From positions 62,001-126,000 of the forward strand of contig NZ_CP060436.1 of assembly GCF_003590145.2 (NCBI RefSeq): a stretch of 64,000 bases of DNA, read 5' to 3'. Of this stretch, positions 5,174 to 63,201 are shown piece after piece. Each line of letters starts with the position of its first letter. Positions within the stretch are counted from its first letter, which is position 1. This DNA is from Pseudooceanicola algae (GTDB lineage Bacteria > Pseudomonadota > Alphaproteobacteria > Rhodobacterales > Rhodobacteraceae). The position numbers were made by a program, and so were the translations under genes. The notes under the pieces are model-generated. The model ran no database searches and was not told the DNA's origin. It was given only the letters and a program-made list of their open reading frames with translations.

Positions 5174-8443
<3,270 letters not shown>

Positions 8444-56334: not shown

Positions 56335-56528
56335 TCCGTCTCTCCTCTTGCCGTTTTTCCCTGCAATTCAGGGCACTTGCCGCAGGGTGCGCGGGGTCCC
56401 GCCGAACCGGAACCGGGCGACCTTGCCACATGGTCAGGATTGCATTGCATTTGTAAAAAGCAAGCAAAACACGGGTAATGCTGCAGCACAGCACATGATT
56501 TGGGCGAAGTGATGCAATGGGGGCAAGA

Positions 56529-56843
56529 ATGATTATCTACGGCATCAAGAATTGTGACACCTGCCGCAAGGCACTGAAAGAGCTTGGTAATCCAGAGCTT
56601 GTTGATATTCGGCACGATGGGCTGCCGGAAAACCTGTTGCGCCGCGCTGCCGAAACATTCGGCAACGACTTGCTGAACCGGCGATCCACGACGTGGCGTG
56701 GCCTGTCCGAAGACGAACGCGCCGCGCCGATGGAAGACCTGTTGCGCGCGCATCCGCTGTTGATGAAGCGGCCGCTGATAGAGGCGGGGGACAGGCTCTA
56801 CCTCGGCTGGACGCCACAGGTGCGGGCGGCTCTGCTCGGGTAG
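56529..56843 (+). CDS. ArsC/Spx-like reductase family protein (YffB type)
   Basis: This 104-residue thioredoxin-fold protein starts MIIYGIKNCDTCRKALKEL. Its CxxC active site (CDTC) and conserved Arg in RRSTTWRGL match the ArsC/Spx/YffB family, which includes arsenate reductases and regulators. YffB-like members lack arsenate reductase activity, so the function is open. The start at 56529 is chosen; an in-frame ATG at 56517 adds four residues. Confidence 0.85.
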   Translation: MIIYGIKNCDTCRKALKELGNPELVDIRHDGLPENLLRRAAETFGNDLLNRRSTTWRGLSEDERAAPMEDLLRAHPLLMKRPLIEAGDRLYLGWTPQVRAALLG

Positions 56844-56909: not shown

Positions 56910-57458
56910 CTAGCGGGCGGGCTGCGCCTTTGGCACATGGCGGAACAGCAGCCGGTCCAGCGACAGGGCACCGCCGCCCAGGATGCCGGGCACCAGCAAC
57001 AGCATGACCCAGAGCGCACGCTGGTCAAGGATGATGCTGCCGGGATCGCGGTCGAACCATGCCCCGAGACTGGGCGCATCGGCGATCAACCCGTGGCCGT
57101 AGAGGTCGGTCAGGGTCTGCACCAGGATGAACCCGATCATCGCCAGGCTGGCAGGACGGCTCAGCAATCCCAGCAGGATCAGCATGGGCAGCAGGAATTC
57201 CGCCCAGGTGCCGCCGAGGGCAATGGCGCCTTGCAGCCAGCTCATCTGGCTGGCGTCGTAGCCGACCGCTTCGAAGGCTCGCGGAAAGATCTGCCCGTAG
57301 GCGCCGGCGCTCAGGTGCAGGAAGCCAAAACTCCCGTCGCCGATCTTGGTCAGGGCCGAGGCCCAGAAATAGCGCAGCAGTACGGCGGCAAACAGGAAGC
57401 GCGCCAGAAGCGGCAGCAGCGGGGTCAGCCGGGCAAGCGGGGCGGTGGGGTCGGTCAT
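56910..57458 (-). CDS. DoxX family membrane protein (bufferin operon)
   Basis: This 182-residue protein has four hydrophobic helices with LLARFLFAAVLLRYFWASALTKI near the N-terminus and an AEFLLPMLILLGLLSRPASL core, the DoxX pattern. It is the last gene of the bufA-bufB-bufC operon and overlaps bufC by ATGA. In bufferin clusters a DoxX-like membrane protein is common (BufD), but its exact role is not established. It has no metal motif that I can point to. Confidence 0.87.
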   Translation of the reverse strand: MTDPTAPLARLTPLLPLLARFLFAAVLLRYFWASALTKIGDGSFGFLHLSAGAYGQIFPRAFEAVGYDASQMSWLQGAIALGGTWAEFLLPMLILLGLLSRPASLAMIGFILVQTLTDLYGHGLIADAPSLGAWFDRDPGSIILDQRALWVMLLLVPGILGGGALSLDRLLFRHVPKAQPAR

Positions 57459-58228
57459 GGCAGGGTCTCCGCATTTTGGGGATGCTCGATGGTCACCCCG
57501 GTCACCGCCCTGGCGGCCAGCAGGCGGGACAGGAGGTCGGTGAACGCGGCAACCTCGGCATCATCTGTCAGCGCGACGCCGGCGGGGGCCCCGTCCAGCA
57601 GGGCGCGCAGCAGGCGGCTGGCCGATGGCGTCAGCGGCGTCGGGACGGGGTCGAAATCGGGGCGGGTGATCAGGATGTGCTGGGCGGCCGCGCCCGGTTG
57701 CGGCGCATCGGCTTGCCAGGCCTTGCGCCAGATGTCGTGCAGCGGCCAATCCGAGGTCAGCAGCCGAAGCGACGGGGCAAAGTGCAGGCGGGCGCTGGCC
57801 AGATCCTCGGGCGACAGGGCGGCCAGGTGCGCCGGGTCAATGGGCGCCGCATCGGCGGCGTGATAGGCACTGCGCAACGCGAGGTCGAGCCGGGCGATAT
57901 CGGGCAGCCAGGGCATGCTGTCCAAGGCCCGCTGCGCTGCCAGATAGTCGGGCAGCGCCGCGCCGTAGCGAAAGATCCGTTGGTCGCGGGGCGGGTGGGC
58001 GCGTAGGAACGGCTGGGCCAGACGATGCAGATTGGCCTCTCCGATCAGGCGGCACAGGGTCGGAAAGCCTTCGACCAGTGCTCCGGCAAGGCTGCTGGCG
58101 ACATTGTTGCGATAGACGTCGAAACGCCGCCCCGCAGCGCCGCCGCGTCCATCCCCCAGCCCTTCGGGCACCGGACAGGTGGGGTCCAGCAGGGCCGCGC
58201 GAAAGGCGGATTGTTCCGGTGCGCTCAT
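57455..58228 (-). CDS. bufC: bufferin/HvfC maturation partner (DUF2063)
   Basis: This 257-residue protein has the DUF2063 N-terminal domain ([31 protein letters not shown]) with a basic patch, then a C-terminal domain with winged-helix-like features. In bufferin and HvfABC systems such proteins bind the precursor and deliver it to the MNIO enzyme. It overlaps bufB by 4 nt and the DoxX gene by 4 nt. No obvious catalytic residues are present, as expected for a recognition partner. Confidence 0.85.
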
Positions 58229-59109
58229 GACAGGCACAACGCCGGCGTGGGCGCGGCAAGGGGACGGACCTGCGCCAGCGCCGCCTCTGCGCGCTGCGCC
58301 TCTGCCAGCAGTGCGGGCCAGTCGGGCACATCGTTGTCCCATTCAATCAGCAGCGGTTTGGGTCCCGACGCCGCGAGCACCCGGTCGAGCAGCGCCCAGA
58401 CCGGGTCCGCGACGGGGCAACCGTGGCTGTCGATCAACAGGGGGTGGCCCGCTCCGTCGTCCTGCGTGTCATGGCCGCCAAGGTGGATTTCGCCCACGGC
58501 CTCCATCGGGATCGCGTCGACATAGGCTTGCGGGTCGAGATCGAGGTTCACCGCCGAGACAAAGACATTGTTCACGTCCAGCAACAGCCCACAGCCGGTG
58601 CGACGGGTCACTTCGCGCAGGAAATCGGTTTCCGACATCTCGCTGGCCTTGAAGGCAAGGTAGGAAGACGGATTTTCCAGCAGGACCGTCCGGCCAAGCG
58701 CCTCTTGCAGCTGGTCGATGTGGTGGGCGACGCGGGTCAGGGTCGCCTCGGTATAGGGCAGGGGCAGCAGGTCGTTCAGAAAGGCGCTGTCATGGCTCGA
58801 CCAGGCCAGGTGTTCGGAAAAGCTGGCCGGTTGCAGCCAGTCGCACAGATGGCGCAGGCGGGCCAGGTGGTCGCGATCCAGCGGGGCTTCGCCGCCGATC
58901 GACAGGCCGACACCATGCACCGAGATCGGGAAATCCTCGGCCAGCTGGCGCAGTTGGGCCAGTGGGCGGCCACCGTCGCCAAGGTAGTTCTCGGCGTGGA
59001 TCTCCAGCCAGCCGACCGGGGCGGGCCCGGCCAGGATGTCGCGGTAGTGCTGCGCCTTGTAACCGACGCCGGGGGTGGCGGGCAGGGCATTGCGGCGGGG
59101 ATCGGACAT
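58225..59109 (-). CDS. bufB: MNIO family (DUF692) peptide-modifying enzyme, bufferin type
   Basis: This 294-residue TIM-barrel-like enzyme shows the multinuclear-iron ligand set: HGVGLS (His65), SEHLAW (Glu99, His100), LLENPSSY (Glu145), [13 protein letters not shown] (Asp178, Asn180), EIHLGGHD (His209, His213) and DSHGCPV (Asp228). MNIO enzymes oxidise Cys residues of RiPP precursors, as MbnB does in methanobactin. Its position between a four-Cys precursor and bufC fits BufB. It overlaps bufC by ATGA; 124 bases separate it from bufA. Confidence 0.9.
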
Positions 59110-59182
59110 GGCGGGCTTCCTTGCGGATGGGACGACCGGGTGGGTGGCAGGTCGGGGCAGAGTGTCGAGTAGGGATAAAGGT

Positions 59183-59225
59183 GGGGGCGCGGCGCGCGCA
59201 GGTGCGGTGCCCGCGCCGCGCCCCC
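59183..59225 (-). promoter_or_regulatory. Perfect 14-bp hairpin between bufA and bufB
   Basis: GGGGGCGCGGCGCG (minus sequence complementary to 59212-59225) pairs perfectly with the arm at 59183-59196 around a 15-base loop. It begins 8 bases after the bufA stop codon and is followed by ACCTTTATCCC. It could be a partial terminator or an mRNA-protecting stem that makes bufA transcripts more abundant than the enzyme genes. Confidence 0.7.
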
Positions 59226-59233
59226 TGGCGGGC

Positions 59234-59545
59234 TTAGCCCTCCATCGGCAGATCGCGATCCAGGGCGTCCATGGACCCCATGCGGGCATGGCCATCAGCC
59301 ATCGCGGGCAGTTCGATGTCCATGCAGGTGCCGGCGTCGACCAGGGTCCAGGCATTGCCCTGGTAGTCAACTTTGGAGGTGCCGGCGCAGGTGGTGCCGG
59401 GACCGGCGGCGCAATCGTTTTCGCCTGCCAGGGAAACGCCGTAGCATTTTTCCTTGGCCATATCCTGGGCGTGGACGGCGGTGGTGCCGGCCAGAGCGGT
59501 GGCAAAGGCGCCTGCGACGGCGGCGAACTTGAGGGTGTTGGACAT
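59234..59545 (-). CDS. bufA: bufferin precursor peptide (DUF2282)
   Basis: This 103-residue protein has a signal peptide ([26 protein letters not shown], about 26 residues) and a mature part with four cysteines at 34, 45, 53 and 74. The motifs are [30 protein letters not shown] and GTC, which define DUF2282 bufferin-like peptides. A further 29-residue acidic tail follows the last Cys. It is the first gene of the operon, with AAAGGGAGC 8 nt before the ATG. I infer modification of its Cys by BufB and metal (probably copper) binding in the periplasm. Confidence 0.88.
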
Positions 59546-59611
59546 GGTAATGCTCCCTTTGGGGGTCAATGGTTTTGGCAGGACGACCGTCATGGCCTCC
59601 GTGCTTCTCCA

Positions 59612-59637
59612 TTCGCGGCGGAGCGGAAAAAATTACA
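59612..59637 (-). promoter_or_regulatory. Candidate SigF-type promoter of bufA
   Basis: Read on the minus strand, GTAA (59637-59634), a 17-base spacer and CGAAT (59616-59612) lie about 65 bases before the bufA ATG, leaving a normal leader with a ribosome site. This resembles the GTAACC-N16-CGAA element I recall for Caulobacter SigF, one base shorter. The transcription start is inferred near 59605. Confidence 0.55.
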
Positions 59638-59683
59638 GCCGTCACGAAACCGTGAATGAATTGCGGAAAATCCCACTATCGCT

Positions 59684-59710
59684 GTAACGTCCGGCCAGAG
59701 TTCCGCGAAT
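59684..59710 (+). promoter_or_regulatory. Candidate SigF-type promoter facing the sigma gene
   Basis: GTAACG (59684-59689), a 16-base spacer and CGAAT (59706-59710) match the same element exactly in spacing. It lies only about 11 bases before the sigma-factor ATG at 59721, so the transcript would be almost leaderless. It may be autoregulatory, or it may control a different start. Confidence 0.45.
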
Positions 59711-59720
59711 GGAGCAGGGA

Positions 59721-60380
59721 ATGAGCGAACGTAATGCCCTCTGGGGTGACCTTCTGAGACGTGCGAACCGGGGCGATGCTGCGGCCTATGCGCGTTTCCT
59801 GACCGAGGTCGCGCCGGTGATGCGCAACATCGTGCGCGCGCGCAGCCCCGGTGCTGGCGTGGAAGAGGTCGAGGATATCGTCCAGGAGGTGCTGCTGGCC
59901 CTGCATGCCAAGCGCCATACCTGGCGGGACAGCGACCCGGTGACGCCCTGGCTGTATGCCATCGCGCGCTACAAGACCGCCGATGCGGCGCGGCGGCGGC
60001 GCGGGGGCGGGGCCCATGTGCCGATCGATGACCTCGCCGAGGTCCTGCCCGATGAAAATTCGGGTGATGGGACGGCGGCGGGGGATCTGACCCGGTTGCT
60101 GGACGGGATCGACGACCGGTCGGCCGGGATCGTGCGCGGAATGGGGGTGGAAGGCGAAAGCGCCGGTACCATCGGCGCCCGGCTGGGGATGAGCGAAGGC
60201 GCGGTGCGCGTCGCCTATCACCGCGCGCTGCAACGGCTGCGCCTGCGGGCAACCGGGCAGGACCCGCCGGGAGGGGCCCAGACCGGGGTCGCGGCAAATG
60301 CCGTCCCGCCCCGCGACGGGATCAAGAGAAGGAAGATGCGGCGCCCGCGGCCCGATCATTTGGACGAAAGAGGCAGATGA
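59721..60380 (+). CDS. sigF: ECF-type RNA polymerase sigma factor (SigF-like)
   Basis: This 219-residue sigma factor has region 2 (ANRGDAAAYARFLTEVAPVMRNIVRAR, then VEDIVQEVLLALHAKRHTWRD and WLYAIARYKTADAARRR) and region 4 (GESAGTIGARLGMSEGAVRVAYHRALQRLRL). It belongs to the ECF group that pairs with NrsF (DUF1109) anti-sigma factors. The ATG at 59721 has GGAG spaced 6 nt; the ATG at 59709 lies within the candidate -10. It overlaps nrsF by ATGA and faces the bufferin operon. Confidence 0.88.
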   Translation: MSERNALWGDLLRRANRGDAAAYARFLTEVAPVMRNIVRARSPGAGVEEVEDIVQEVLLALHAKRHTWRDSDPVTPWLYAIARYKTADAARRRRGGGAHVPIDDLAEVLPDENSGDGTAAGDLTRLLDGIDDRSAGIVRGMGVEGESAGTIGARLGMSEGAVRVAYHRALQRLRLRATGQDPPGGAQTGVAANAVPPRDGIKRRKMRRPRPDHLDERGR

Positions 60381-61018
60381 ACACCGAAGACCTGATCCAG
60401 AGCCTAGCCGCCGAACCGGCCGCACAGCGCGGCGCCGGGCCCGAAGGCCGTCTGCTTCCCTTGCTTCTGGCCGGGCTGGCAATGACGGCGGCGATCTACT
60501 TTTCCTTTTACGGACCGCGCCCCGGCCTGATGGCCGTGCTGGGCGATCCGATGATCTCGGCCAAGACACTGCTGCCGCTGCTGCTGGGCCTTCTGGCGCT
60601 GGCGCTCGCGCTGCGCTCGGCGCGACCCGCGCAGCCCTTCGGCCTGCCCGGCGCGGTGATCTGGGCGGTGCCCATGGCGGCGGCGGCGTTGTTCGTGCTG
60701 GCCTATCTGACGACGGATCCCGCGCAGCGGATGACCGGGTTCATCGGCGGGTCCATCATGGTCTGCCTGCCCTCGATCCCGCTGCTTTCGCTGCCCATCC
60801 TTGCGGGGATGATCGCCGCCCTGCGGCGCGGGGCACCGGTGCATCCGGTGCGGTCCGGGGCGCTGGCCGGGCTGGCGGCGGCTGGTCTGGCCGCGGCGAT
60901 CTATTCGACCTTCTGCACCGAGGACACGCCGCTGTTCTACGCGGTCTGGTACAGCACCGCCATCGGCATCGCGACCGGGATCGGCGCACTGGCCGGGGCA
61001 CGCTGGCTGCGCTGGTAA
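60377..61018 (+). CDS. nrsF: NrsF family anti-sigma factor (DUF1109)
   Basis: This 213-residue protein has six hydrophobic helices and no periplasmic domain. It matches DUF1109/NrsF, the membrane anti-sigma factor of SigF in Caulobacter. It has exactly two cysteines, Cys130 and Cys180, in MVCLPSIP and STFCTEDTP; equivalent cysteines were reported as essential for the response to chromate and cadmium. It is coupled to sigF by ATGA. The N-terminal stretch MNTEDLIQSLA is cytoplasmic and should contact the sigma factor. Confidence 0.88.
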   Translation: MNTEDLIQSLAAEPAAQRGAGPEGRLLPLLLAGLAMTAAIYFSFYGPRPGLMAVLGDPMISAKTLLPLLLGLLALALALRSARPAQPFGLPGAVIWAVPMAAAALFVLAYLTTDPAQRMTGFIGGSIMVCLPSIPLLSLPILAGMIAALRRGAPVHPVRSGALAGLAAAGLAAAIYSTFCTEDTPLFYAVWYSTAIGIATGIGALAGARWLRW

Positions 61019-61085: not shown

Positions 61086-63032
61086 TCAGCGCAGGTCCGG
61101 CGGTGTGATCTCGGCGGCGATCTGGGCGACAATTTCATCCAGCGTCTGGATCTTCGTCTGCTTCTCGCCAAGACGACGGGTCGAGACGGTGCGATCCTCG
61201 ACCTCCTTCATCCCGCAGGCCAGGATATAGGGCACCTTGCCGACCGAATGTTCGCGGACCTTGTAATTGATCTTTTCGTTGCGCAGGTCGGCTTCGGCGC
61301 GGATGCCACGGGCCTTCAGGGCCGCGACGACCTCGAGGCAGTAGTCATTCGCATCGGTCACGATCCCGGCGACAACCACCTGTCGCGGTGCCAGCCAGAG
61401 CGGCAGCTTGCCGGCGTGTTCCTCGATCAGGATGCCGATGAAGCGCTCGAACGACCCCACCACGGCGCGGTGCAGCATGATCGGGTGGTGCTTTTCACCG
61501 TCCTGCCCGATGTAATGCGCCTCGAGCCGCTCGGGCAGGTTCGGGTCGACTTGCAGCGTGCCGCACTGCCAGTCGCGCCCGATGGCATCGGTCAGCACGA
61601 ACTCCAGCTTCGGGCCATAGAAAGCCCCTTCGCCGGGGTTCAGCGTGTAGTCGTACCCGGCCGCCTTGCAGGCATTGCCAAGCGCGGCTTCGACCTGATC
61701 CCAGCTTTCCTCGGTGCCGACGCGCTTTTCGGGGCGGGTCGACAGCTTGACGCTCCAGCTTTCGAAACCGAGGTCGGCGTAAATCTTGGCGAGGAATTCG
61801 ATGAACTTCTTCGATTCCGCCTCGATCTGGTCGACGGTGCAGAAGATATGCGCGTCGTCCTGCGTGAAGCCGCGCACCCGCATGATGCCATGCAGCGCGC
61901 CCGAGGGTTCGTAGCGCGCGCAGGAGCCGAACTCGGCCATCCGCAGCGGCAGGTCGCGATAACTTTTCAGGCCGTGGTTGAAGATCTGCACGTGGCAAGG
62001 GCAGTTCATCGGCTTCAGCGCGTTGATGGTCTTTTCGCGCGCGTGATCCTCGTCCACTTCGACGATGAACATGTTCTCCTGATAGTTGCCCCAGTGGCCG
62101 GATTGTTCCCAGAGCTTGCGGTTCACCACCTGCGGGGTGTTGACCTCGACATAGCCATCCACCCGCTGCTGGCGGCGCATGTAATCCTGCAGCTCGGTAT
62201 ATATGGTCCAGCCGTTGGGGTGCCAGAAGATCTGGCCGGGGGCCTCTTCCTGCATGTGGAACAGGTCCATCTCGCGGCCCAGCTTGCGGTGATCGCGCTT
62301 GGCGGCCTCTTCCAGCATCAGCAGGTGGGCCTTCAGCTTTTCCTTGCCGGTGAAGGCCACGCCGTAGATCCGTTGCAGCATGGGGCGGTCGCTGTCACCG
62401 CGCCAGTAGGCACCGGCGACCGACATCAGCTTGAAGGCATCGGCGGGCACCTGGCCGGTGTGCTGCAGGTGCGGGCCGCGGCACAGGTCCTGCCAGTCGC
62501 CGTGCCAGTACATCCGCAGCGGCTCGTCGCCGGGGATGCTTTCGATCAGCTCGACCTTGTAGGGTTCACCGCGGTCCTCGTAGTACCTGATTGCAACATC
62601 GCGATCCCAGACTTCCGTGCGAACCGGATCGCGAAGATTGATGATCTCCTTCATCTTCTTCTCGATCTCGCCAAGGTCCTCGGGCGTGAAGGGCTCGGCC
62701 CGGTCGAAATCGTAGTACCAGCCGTCCTTGATCACCGGGCCGATGGTGACCTTCACGTCCGGCCACAGCTCCTGCACGGCGCGGGCCATGATATGGGCAA
62801 GGTCGTGGCGCACCAGTTCGTTCGCGGGGCCGTCGTCCTTCATCGTGTGGATGGCGATCTGCGCGTCGGCCTCGATAGGCCATTGCAGGTCCCAGTGCTG
62901 GCCATTCACGCTGGCGGAGATCGCCTTCTTGGCCAGTGACGTGGAAATGCCGGCGGCCACTTCGGCAGGCGTCACGCCAGCCGCGTAGTCGCGCGCATTG
63001 CCATCGGGAAAGGTGAGTGAGATCTGGGACAT
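61086..63032 (-). CDS. thrS: threonyl-tRNA synthetase
   Basis: ThrS charges tRNA-Thr and edits mischarged serine. The 648-residue protein has an N-terminal TGS domain ([16 protein letters not shown]), the editing SAD-type domain with [16 protein letters not shown], the class II catalytic motifs (motif 2 [22 protein letters not shown]), the Cys and His zinc ligands (MNCPCH) and an anticodon-binding domain at the end. GAGGAGGA precedes the ATG at 63032. The order and length are normal. Confidence 0.97.
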
Positions 63033-63201
63033 GTCTGTCCTCCTCGTCAGTTTGGCGCCCACGGAACGCCCGGTTGCGGGTTATGTGTGAAAGGCGAATT
63101 GGCAGAGGAGGGGACCCAAGTCAAGCTTTCGGGGGTTGGGATCAGGCAGTGGCGCGGCCTGCGCCGGTGTCCAAGGATGATGTCAGCCCATAGCGGAGCC
63201 C

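Follow-up and report, generated by a model that had tools for sequence, protein, structure and literature searches.

Bufferins are widespread copper-binding ribosomally synthesized and post-translationally modified peptides, and the switch described for the alphaproteobacterial DUF2282 type is the extracytoplasmic function (ECF) sigma factor SigF with its anti-sigma factor NrsF. In Caulobacter, sigF-nrsF is described together with CC3254-CC3257 (bufferin-1), which supply DUF2282, DUF692, DUF2063 and DoxX proteins, the box there is GTAAC-N16-CGAA, and SigF is described as the sole regulator of CC3254 (PMC3511200). The Caulobacter SigF genes are copper-induced and the sigF mutant is copper-sensitive (PMC8224329). 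In Sinorhizobium meliloti, the bufferin operon SMb20530-SMb20527 is divergent from the ECF16 sigma/anti-sigma pair rpoE7-ecfR7, the same box stands at both promoters and dependence on the sigma factor was shown (PMC6180224). Sigma and NrsF genes are among those recorded for Buf1 clusters in a 2025 survey (PMC12452194). The present analysis concerns the corresponding locus of Pseudooceanicola algae, which lies in a 64,000-nucleotide stretch of contig NZ_CP060436.1 (the window, to which all positions refer). The minus strand at 56910-59545 carries bufA, bufB, bufC and a doxX-like gene, and the plus strand at 59709-61018 carries sigF and nrsF. This layout is already known from Caulobacter, Sinorhizobium and the 2025 survey; what is new is the regulation. 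The bufA promoter of this bufferin-1 operon probably has two inputs, SigF and a second DNA-binding regulator.

Both divergent promoters carry a SigF box. The sigF box is at 59684-59709 on the plus strand (GTAACG-N16-CGAA) and the bufA box is at 59612-59636 on the minus strand (GTAATT-N15-CGAA), the latter deviating from the reference ECF16 consensus (T/C)GTAAC-N16/17-CGAA. The 4.09 Mb genome was searched with the strict pattern GTAA-N17/18-CGAATGG only, which leaves room for weaker targets; the two matches are both at the buf locus and the reversed control gave none. Caulobacter SigF differs in having further targets, namely a second DUF2282 cluster and msrPQ (PMC8224329). Translation of sigF more likely starts at 59721 than at 59709 because the ATG at 59709 overlaps the CGAA (−10) element of its own promoter. 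The candidate NrsF sensor residues Cys130 and Cys180 are 50 residues apart, are present in 13 of 13 aligned proteins and correspond to the Caulobacter pair 131/181 (PMC3511200). A scan for sigma70 promoters and terminators gave nothing above shuffled sequences. An earlier note on this DNA, made by a model from the letters, had described the operon as facing a SigF/NrsF switch. That identity is well supported, but control probably extends beyond SigF: another conserved operator lies next to the SigF box, and 88 of the 106 precursor-bearing genomes in a sample of 149 from the family Rhodobacteraceae have no NrsF match when the lists are compared.

The proposed operator of the second regulator is the palindrome TCACGAAACCGTGA at 59642-59655, which lies on the upstream side of the bufA SigF box at a distance of 5 bp. 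It is a single dyad, and no tandem site was found in the window. The exact form TCAC-N6-GTGA occurs in 6 of the 12 SigF-linked family loci, compared to 0.02 expected from shuffles, and in all 18 SigF-linked loci of the window's genus. In relaxed form, the palindrome accompanies the bufA box at 28 of 29 SigF-linked loci (the 12 from the family, which represent separate genera, and 17 further loci of the genus), at an offset of 19-20 bp in 24 and 29-30 bp in four. The distance to the sigF box is 27-29 bp in 18 of the 19 loci measured, all but one of which belong to the window's genus. The palindrome is kept at one or two offsets while the surrounding bases drift. Helical phasing was considered as a class-wide rule and given up because offsets outside the family include 23-26 bp.

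Loci without sigF have a different bufA promoter. The SigF pattern GTAA-N16/19-CGAA precedes bufA in 8 of 12 SigF-linked loci and in 0 of 91 sigF-less loci; three of the 106 loci (L038, L129 and L140) have no settled bufA start and were left out of the promoter counts. The presence of SigF co-varies with promoter type. The sigF-less promoters carry the tandem dyad TGACG-N4-CGTGA-N2-CACG-N4-CGTGA-N-TGG about 24 nucleotides before a TAnnnT element, a profile built from 76 of the 91 loci, in which the format TnAC-N6-GTGA is doubled at a 15-bp step. Across the 149 genomes, the pattern GTGANNCACGNNNNCGTGANT has 27 matches: 24 stand immediately in front of bufA, the other three fall within open frames of at least 300 codons, and the reversed control has none. 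A sequence model (R1) built from 54 tandem sites found no site outside the buf genes at E ≤ 0.001, under strict search filters that lose weak matches. Its matches at the training loci are present by construction; what carries information is that no others were found. Weaker off-locus matches include G118:C8 (E = 0.0038), G049:C1 (E = 0.0042) and G112:C7 (E = 0.0089). Among named loci with sequence upstream of bufA, 49 of 78 contain a tandem-like site by a loose pattern, and the operator is present in the sigF-less relative Tritonibacter mobilis. The two members of the window's genus without SigF beside bufA (L263 and L264) both carry the tandem form. At locus L091 (genome G063), the tandem operator is directly before bufB, not bufA, at about 5304-5340.

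All 106 DUF2282 loci were retrieved from the 149 family genomes, of which 105 have an MNIO match and 23 an NrsF match (22 above cut-off). The module, which the earlier note called characterised in few organisms, is not rare. tblastn with the window's thrS open reading frame (ORF) places thrS upstream of bufA in 79 of the 106 loci. The commonest arrangement, found in 77, is thrS-bufABC-doxX without SigF in the stretch, and 67 of these also have arsC. These loci share the thrS-arsC slot and the gene order with the window, and their BufB proteins are about 60-77% identical to its own; they differ in having the tandem operator, no SigF box before bufA and no SigF/NrsF. Only the window and L045 combine upstream thrS with SigF among the 79 thrS-linked loci, and the remaining family loci comprise 12 with SigF but not thrS and 15 with neither. 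A BufB tree separates the window and L045 from the remaining 12 SigF loci and from each other, placing both within the thrS-linked, mostly sigF-less part; it covers 104 of 105 proteins by a quick method with moderate support and does not tell gain from loss. Within the window's genus, DUF2282 is present in 20 of 22 genomes and SigF is beside bufA in 18 of the 20, the exceptions being L263, from a 77% complete genome, and L264, which has thrS directly upstream. Seven loci with the nrsF-sigF cassette were found among 80 named close relatives, mostly Pseudooceanicola or Oceanicola, and all seven have thrS upstream, a SigF box and the palindrome. Pseudooceanicola antarcticus and P. marinus carry the cassette with both promoter elements. 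Genome G169 (L234), also from this genus, has NrsF without any DUF2282 match, and no SigF-type pattern was found in its NrsF locus.

Outside the family, 385 alphaproteobacterial genomes were searched for the dyad combined with a SigF box; 10 of them contain it, at 12 places in all, and the reversed control gave none. Three of these places are in front of bufA (L272-L274), and one (L268) precedes a DUF1223 gene that is divergent from SigF/NrsF. SigF/NrsF genes also adjoin L276, and at L277 the gene behind the pattern is a sigF gene. MsrP-type, DsbD-like and sub-threshold YHS genes follow one place each, and two places have no ORF of 60 amino acids in front. On named plasmids of S. meliloti, Ensifer adhaerens and Rhizobium gallicum, TCAC-N6-GTGT lies 25-26 bp before the SigF box. 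S. meliloti SM11 resembles the window in having TCACGAAAGCGTGT upstream of its bufA box; it differs in the distance to the box (about 25 bp, not 19-20 or 29-30), in an imperfect second dyad half and in not lying beside thrS in the stretch examined. The palindrome is missing from two of the five named Rhizobiaceae loci of SigF type (Shinella and Rhizobium sp. B230/85). The dyad thus occurs with bufferin promoters of SigF type outside the family as well, but inconsistently and at varying distances. Three side observations were made in these wider searches. At L269, another of the 12 places, a dyad and SigF box divergent from SigF/NrsF stand before the gene for a secreted Cys-Ala-Ala-Lys repeat protein with no Pfam match, which could be another Cys-modified precursor. 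A BufB relative is encoded in 351 plasmid records, including plasmids of Escherichia, Klebsiella, Salmonella and Burkholderia. An Azotobacter chroococcum plasmid (L285) has a bufferin operon followed by a sigma gene, a zf-HC2 gene and msrP.

The neighbourhoods of the 77 sigF-less thrS-linked loci were compared using ORFs of at least 90 amino acids from six reference loci. The families common to most of them are thrS, the buf genes, doxX and arsC. Other neighbours are a small membrane protein in 37-38 of the 77 and, beyond thrS, an ArsR-like gene (named by eye) in 13. A histidine kinase gene beside bufA on a Paracoccus plasmid (L281) was set aside; it is near an insertion sequence element, and that bufA has neither SigF box nor palindrome. 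The format of the operator resembles the boxes of regulators of the CusR/HprR and CopR types: the E. coli box CATTACAAAATTGTAATG and the Pseudomonas CopR box CTGACAn5GTAAT share a 14-bp TnAC-N6-GTnA format (PMC9302797, PMC11195947). The bufA operators differ in that the second half is mostly GTGA and in being doubled at the 15-bp step in sigF-less loci. This resemblance in box format makes a CusR/CopR-type protein a tentative candidate for the regulator. No earlier description of the operator was found in the open-licence literature.

The pathway that would connect these elements starts with BufA synthesis in the cytoplasm, followed by oxidation of its two central cysteines to thiooxazoles by BufB and BufC. 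Sec would then export BufA, the outer cysteine pair would form a disulfide and the mature peptide would chelate periplasmic copper. NrsF would hold SigF at the membrane through the Cys130/Cys180 sensor and release it under metal stress, and the freed SigF would fire both divergent promoters. The second regulator would bind TCAC-N6-GTGA, which lies immediately ahead of the bufA −35 box, and would cooperate with the SigF polymerase. In most relatives, the regulator would act alone on the tandem operator before a sigma70-like promoter. The peptide chemistry and NrsF sensing in this scheme are assigned by homology, and a periplasmic metal-buffer role with copper binding and metal induction is suggested by homology with Caulobacter (PMC3511200, PMC8224329, PMC12452194).

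A simpler explanation is that SigF/NrsF is the only switch, and that the palindrome is either an upstream structural element found in some ECF16 promoters or a relic of an older promoter that no longer functions in SigF-carrying lineages. The description of CC3254 as solely SigF-regulated (PMC3511200) and the two Rhizobiaceae loci that lack the palindrome agree with this explanation, but the offset is restricted to one or two values while the flanking bases drift. Related dyads also precede bufA in loci without SigF, and therefore the palindrome is not merely a piece of SigF promoters. A sole SigF switch is considered unlikely. If a second protein does bind, it might instead be a repressor that shuts the divergent promoters, with SigF release merely overriding it. 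The location of the palindrome between the two promoters, with its nearly constant distance to the sigF box, would suit a repressor. Neither SigF box includes the palindrome, however, and in the sigF-less promoter the tandem form directly adjoins the putative −35 region, a position that would fit an activator better; repression is judged improbable. The main role of the operon might also be defence against HOCl and similar oxidants, or against a metal other than copper. An ECF16 system of Brucella governs resistance to HOCl, several ECF16 regulons share methionine sulfoxide reductase genes (PMC8315932), and the MsrP, DsbD-like and YHS-like genes behind the palindrome and SigF box in other genomes point the same way. 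Against this role stand the DUF2282 precursor, a BufB score above the bufferin-maturase cut-off, and the copper induction of the Caulobacter SigF genes and copper sensitivity of the sigF mutant (PMC8224329), which together leave it improbable.

Several observations weigh against the two-input promoter that we favor. No protein that binds the palindrome is known, and the comparison of the 77 loci revealed no regulator gene conserved beside the sigF-less operons. The constancy of the spacing within the genus counts for less because the genus loci are closely related. Outside the family the offset is 25-26 bp in three Rhizobiaceae loci and the palindrome is absent from Shinella and Rhizobium sp. 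B230/85. The S. meliloti RpoE7 targets were not induced by H2O2, Cd or chromate (PMC6180224), Caulobacter sigF is reported to be dispensable for resistance to Cr and Cd (PMC3511200), and gig of C. metallidurans is reported to have no effect on copper resistance (cited in PMC8224329). The putative DoxX protein scores below its family cut-off.

The locus is almost certainly a bufferin-1 operon with SigF/NrsF, as judged from profile matches and gene order. All six genes were confirmed in the order and on the strands given by the earlier note within 56910-61018, and DUF2282, MNIO, DUF2063, sigma and NrsF all score above their cut-offs. On the minus strand, bufA (59234-59545) encodes the 103-residue bufferin-1 precursor (PF10048, DUF2282, 84.7 bits, cut-off 22.4) and bufB (58225-59109) encodes the 294-residue MNIO bufferin maturase (NF050167, MNIO_BufB, 381 bits, cut-off 310; PF05114, MNIO, E = 9e-106). 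The DUF2063 partner BufC (57455-58228, minus strand, 257 residues) matches PF09836 with 76.9 bits (cut-off 27.2) and reaches 51.8 of 142 bits under the HvfC equivalog model. BufC had no match among Protein Data Bank sequences, and only a fold search gave relatives: its predicted fold (pLDDT 91.9) is nearest to TglI (8hi7_A, chain A of the TglHI complex) and NGO1945 (3dee), in keeping with the Buf1 partner type that combines DUF2063 with an RRE-type domain. The doxX-like membrane protein gene (56910-57458, minus strand, 182 residues) matches PF07681 with 18.2 bits, below the cut-off of 23.6, and its NCBIfam HvfX score is far under cut-off. The DoxX name given earlier is supported by the operon position and by the DoxX annotation of genes at that place in Shinella, Rhizobium and Azotobacter, though its Pfam match is sub-threshold. 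On the plus strand, sigF (59709-60380) encodes an ECF16-type sigma factor with Sigma70_r2 and r4 both above cut-off, and nrsF (60377-61018) encodes a member of the anti-sigma family (PF06532, 165 bits, cut-off 26.8; 87 of 300 bits under the narrow equivalog NF042994). The proposed pairing of an ECF sigma factor with an anti-sigma factor of the six-helix family is borne out by these matches. ATGA overlaps join bufB to bufC, bufC to doxX and sigF to nrsF as noted before, but bufA and bufB are separated by 124 bp. The family-wide upstream neighbour thrS (61086-63062, minus strand) was named from its own sequence, and an ArsC-family gene (56517-56843, plus strand; PF03960, 51.5 bits) is the conserved convergent neighbour downstream. 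The P. algae genome has a single DUF2282, a single MNIO and a single NrsF match, all at the buf locus. The grouping is not due to chance because the same genes recur together in about 100 family genomes.

BufA has exactly four cysteines (34, 45, 53 and 74), in keeping with the four-Cys DUF2282 precursor originally proposed. Its N-terminus, viewed by eye, is signal-peptide-like, with a basic start, a hydrophobic stretch and AVHA-QD. A GSxxALxRDLP-like C-terminal tail (GSLEALxRDLP-like; window 59234-59310, minus strand) lies outside the DUF2282 match and is kept across most of the family in an alignment made by eye. The candidate metal-site residues of BufB (H65, H100, E145, D178, N180, H209, D227, H229 and E256) are all present and align with conserved positions of solved MNIO proteins, which upholds the predicted iron ligands at the level of sequence alignment. 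BufB N180, D227 and H229 correspond to HvfB N175, D242 and H244 by the 3BWW alignment and a one-residue offset counted manually; these HvfB residues are essential (PMC13419390). G130 (L139, G130:C158) is the sole family genome with DUF2282 but without MNIO, and its DUF2282 protein has lost the two central cysteines and kept the outer two. This loss is expected if the central pair is the one that becomes modified (n = 1). The bufA-bufB intergenic region (59110-59233, minus strand) can form a long, G+C-rich stem of −53 kcal/mol with z = −1.1 relative to shuffles; across 103 loci the median z is −1.07, with 11 below −2. An attenuator between bufA and bufB was dropped as a candidate because the stem is not clearly stronger than shuffles.

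A wider proposal, about as likely as not, is that a dedicated, so far undescribed regulator of TnAC-N6-GTGA boxes governs the bufferin operons of many alphaproteobacteria. In most Rhodobacteraceae it would read a doubled box and need no partner; where nrsF-sigF sits between thrS and bufA, it would be the partner of SigF polymerase at a single box placed at a fixed distance. Gain or loss of the cassette would then switch the operon between one-input and two-input control. Most family relatives have the operon without SigF/NrsF and carry instead a specific operator that is nearly confined to the buf genes of each genome, and the missing regulator should therefore be findable by direct experiment. 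With both promoter designs occurring in a single genus, this conserved locus offers a natural example of regulatory rewiring.

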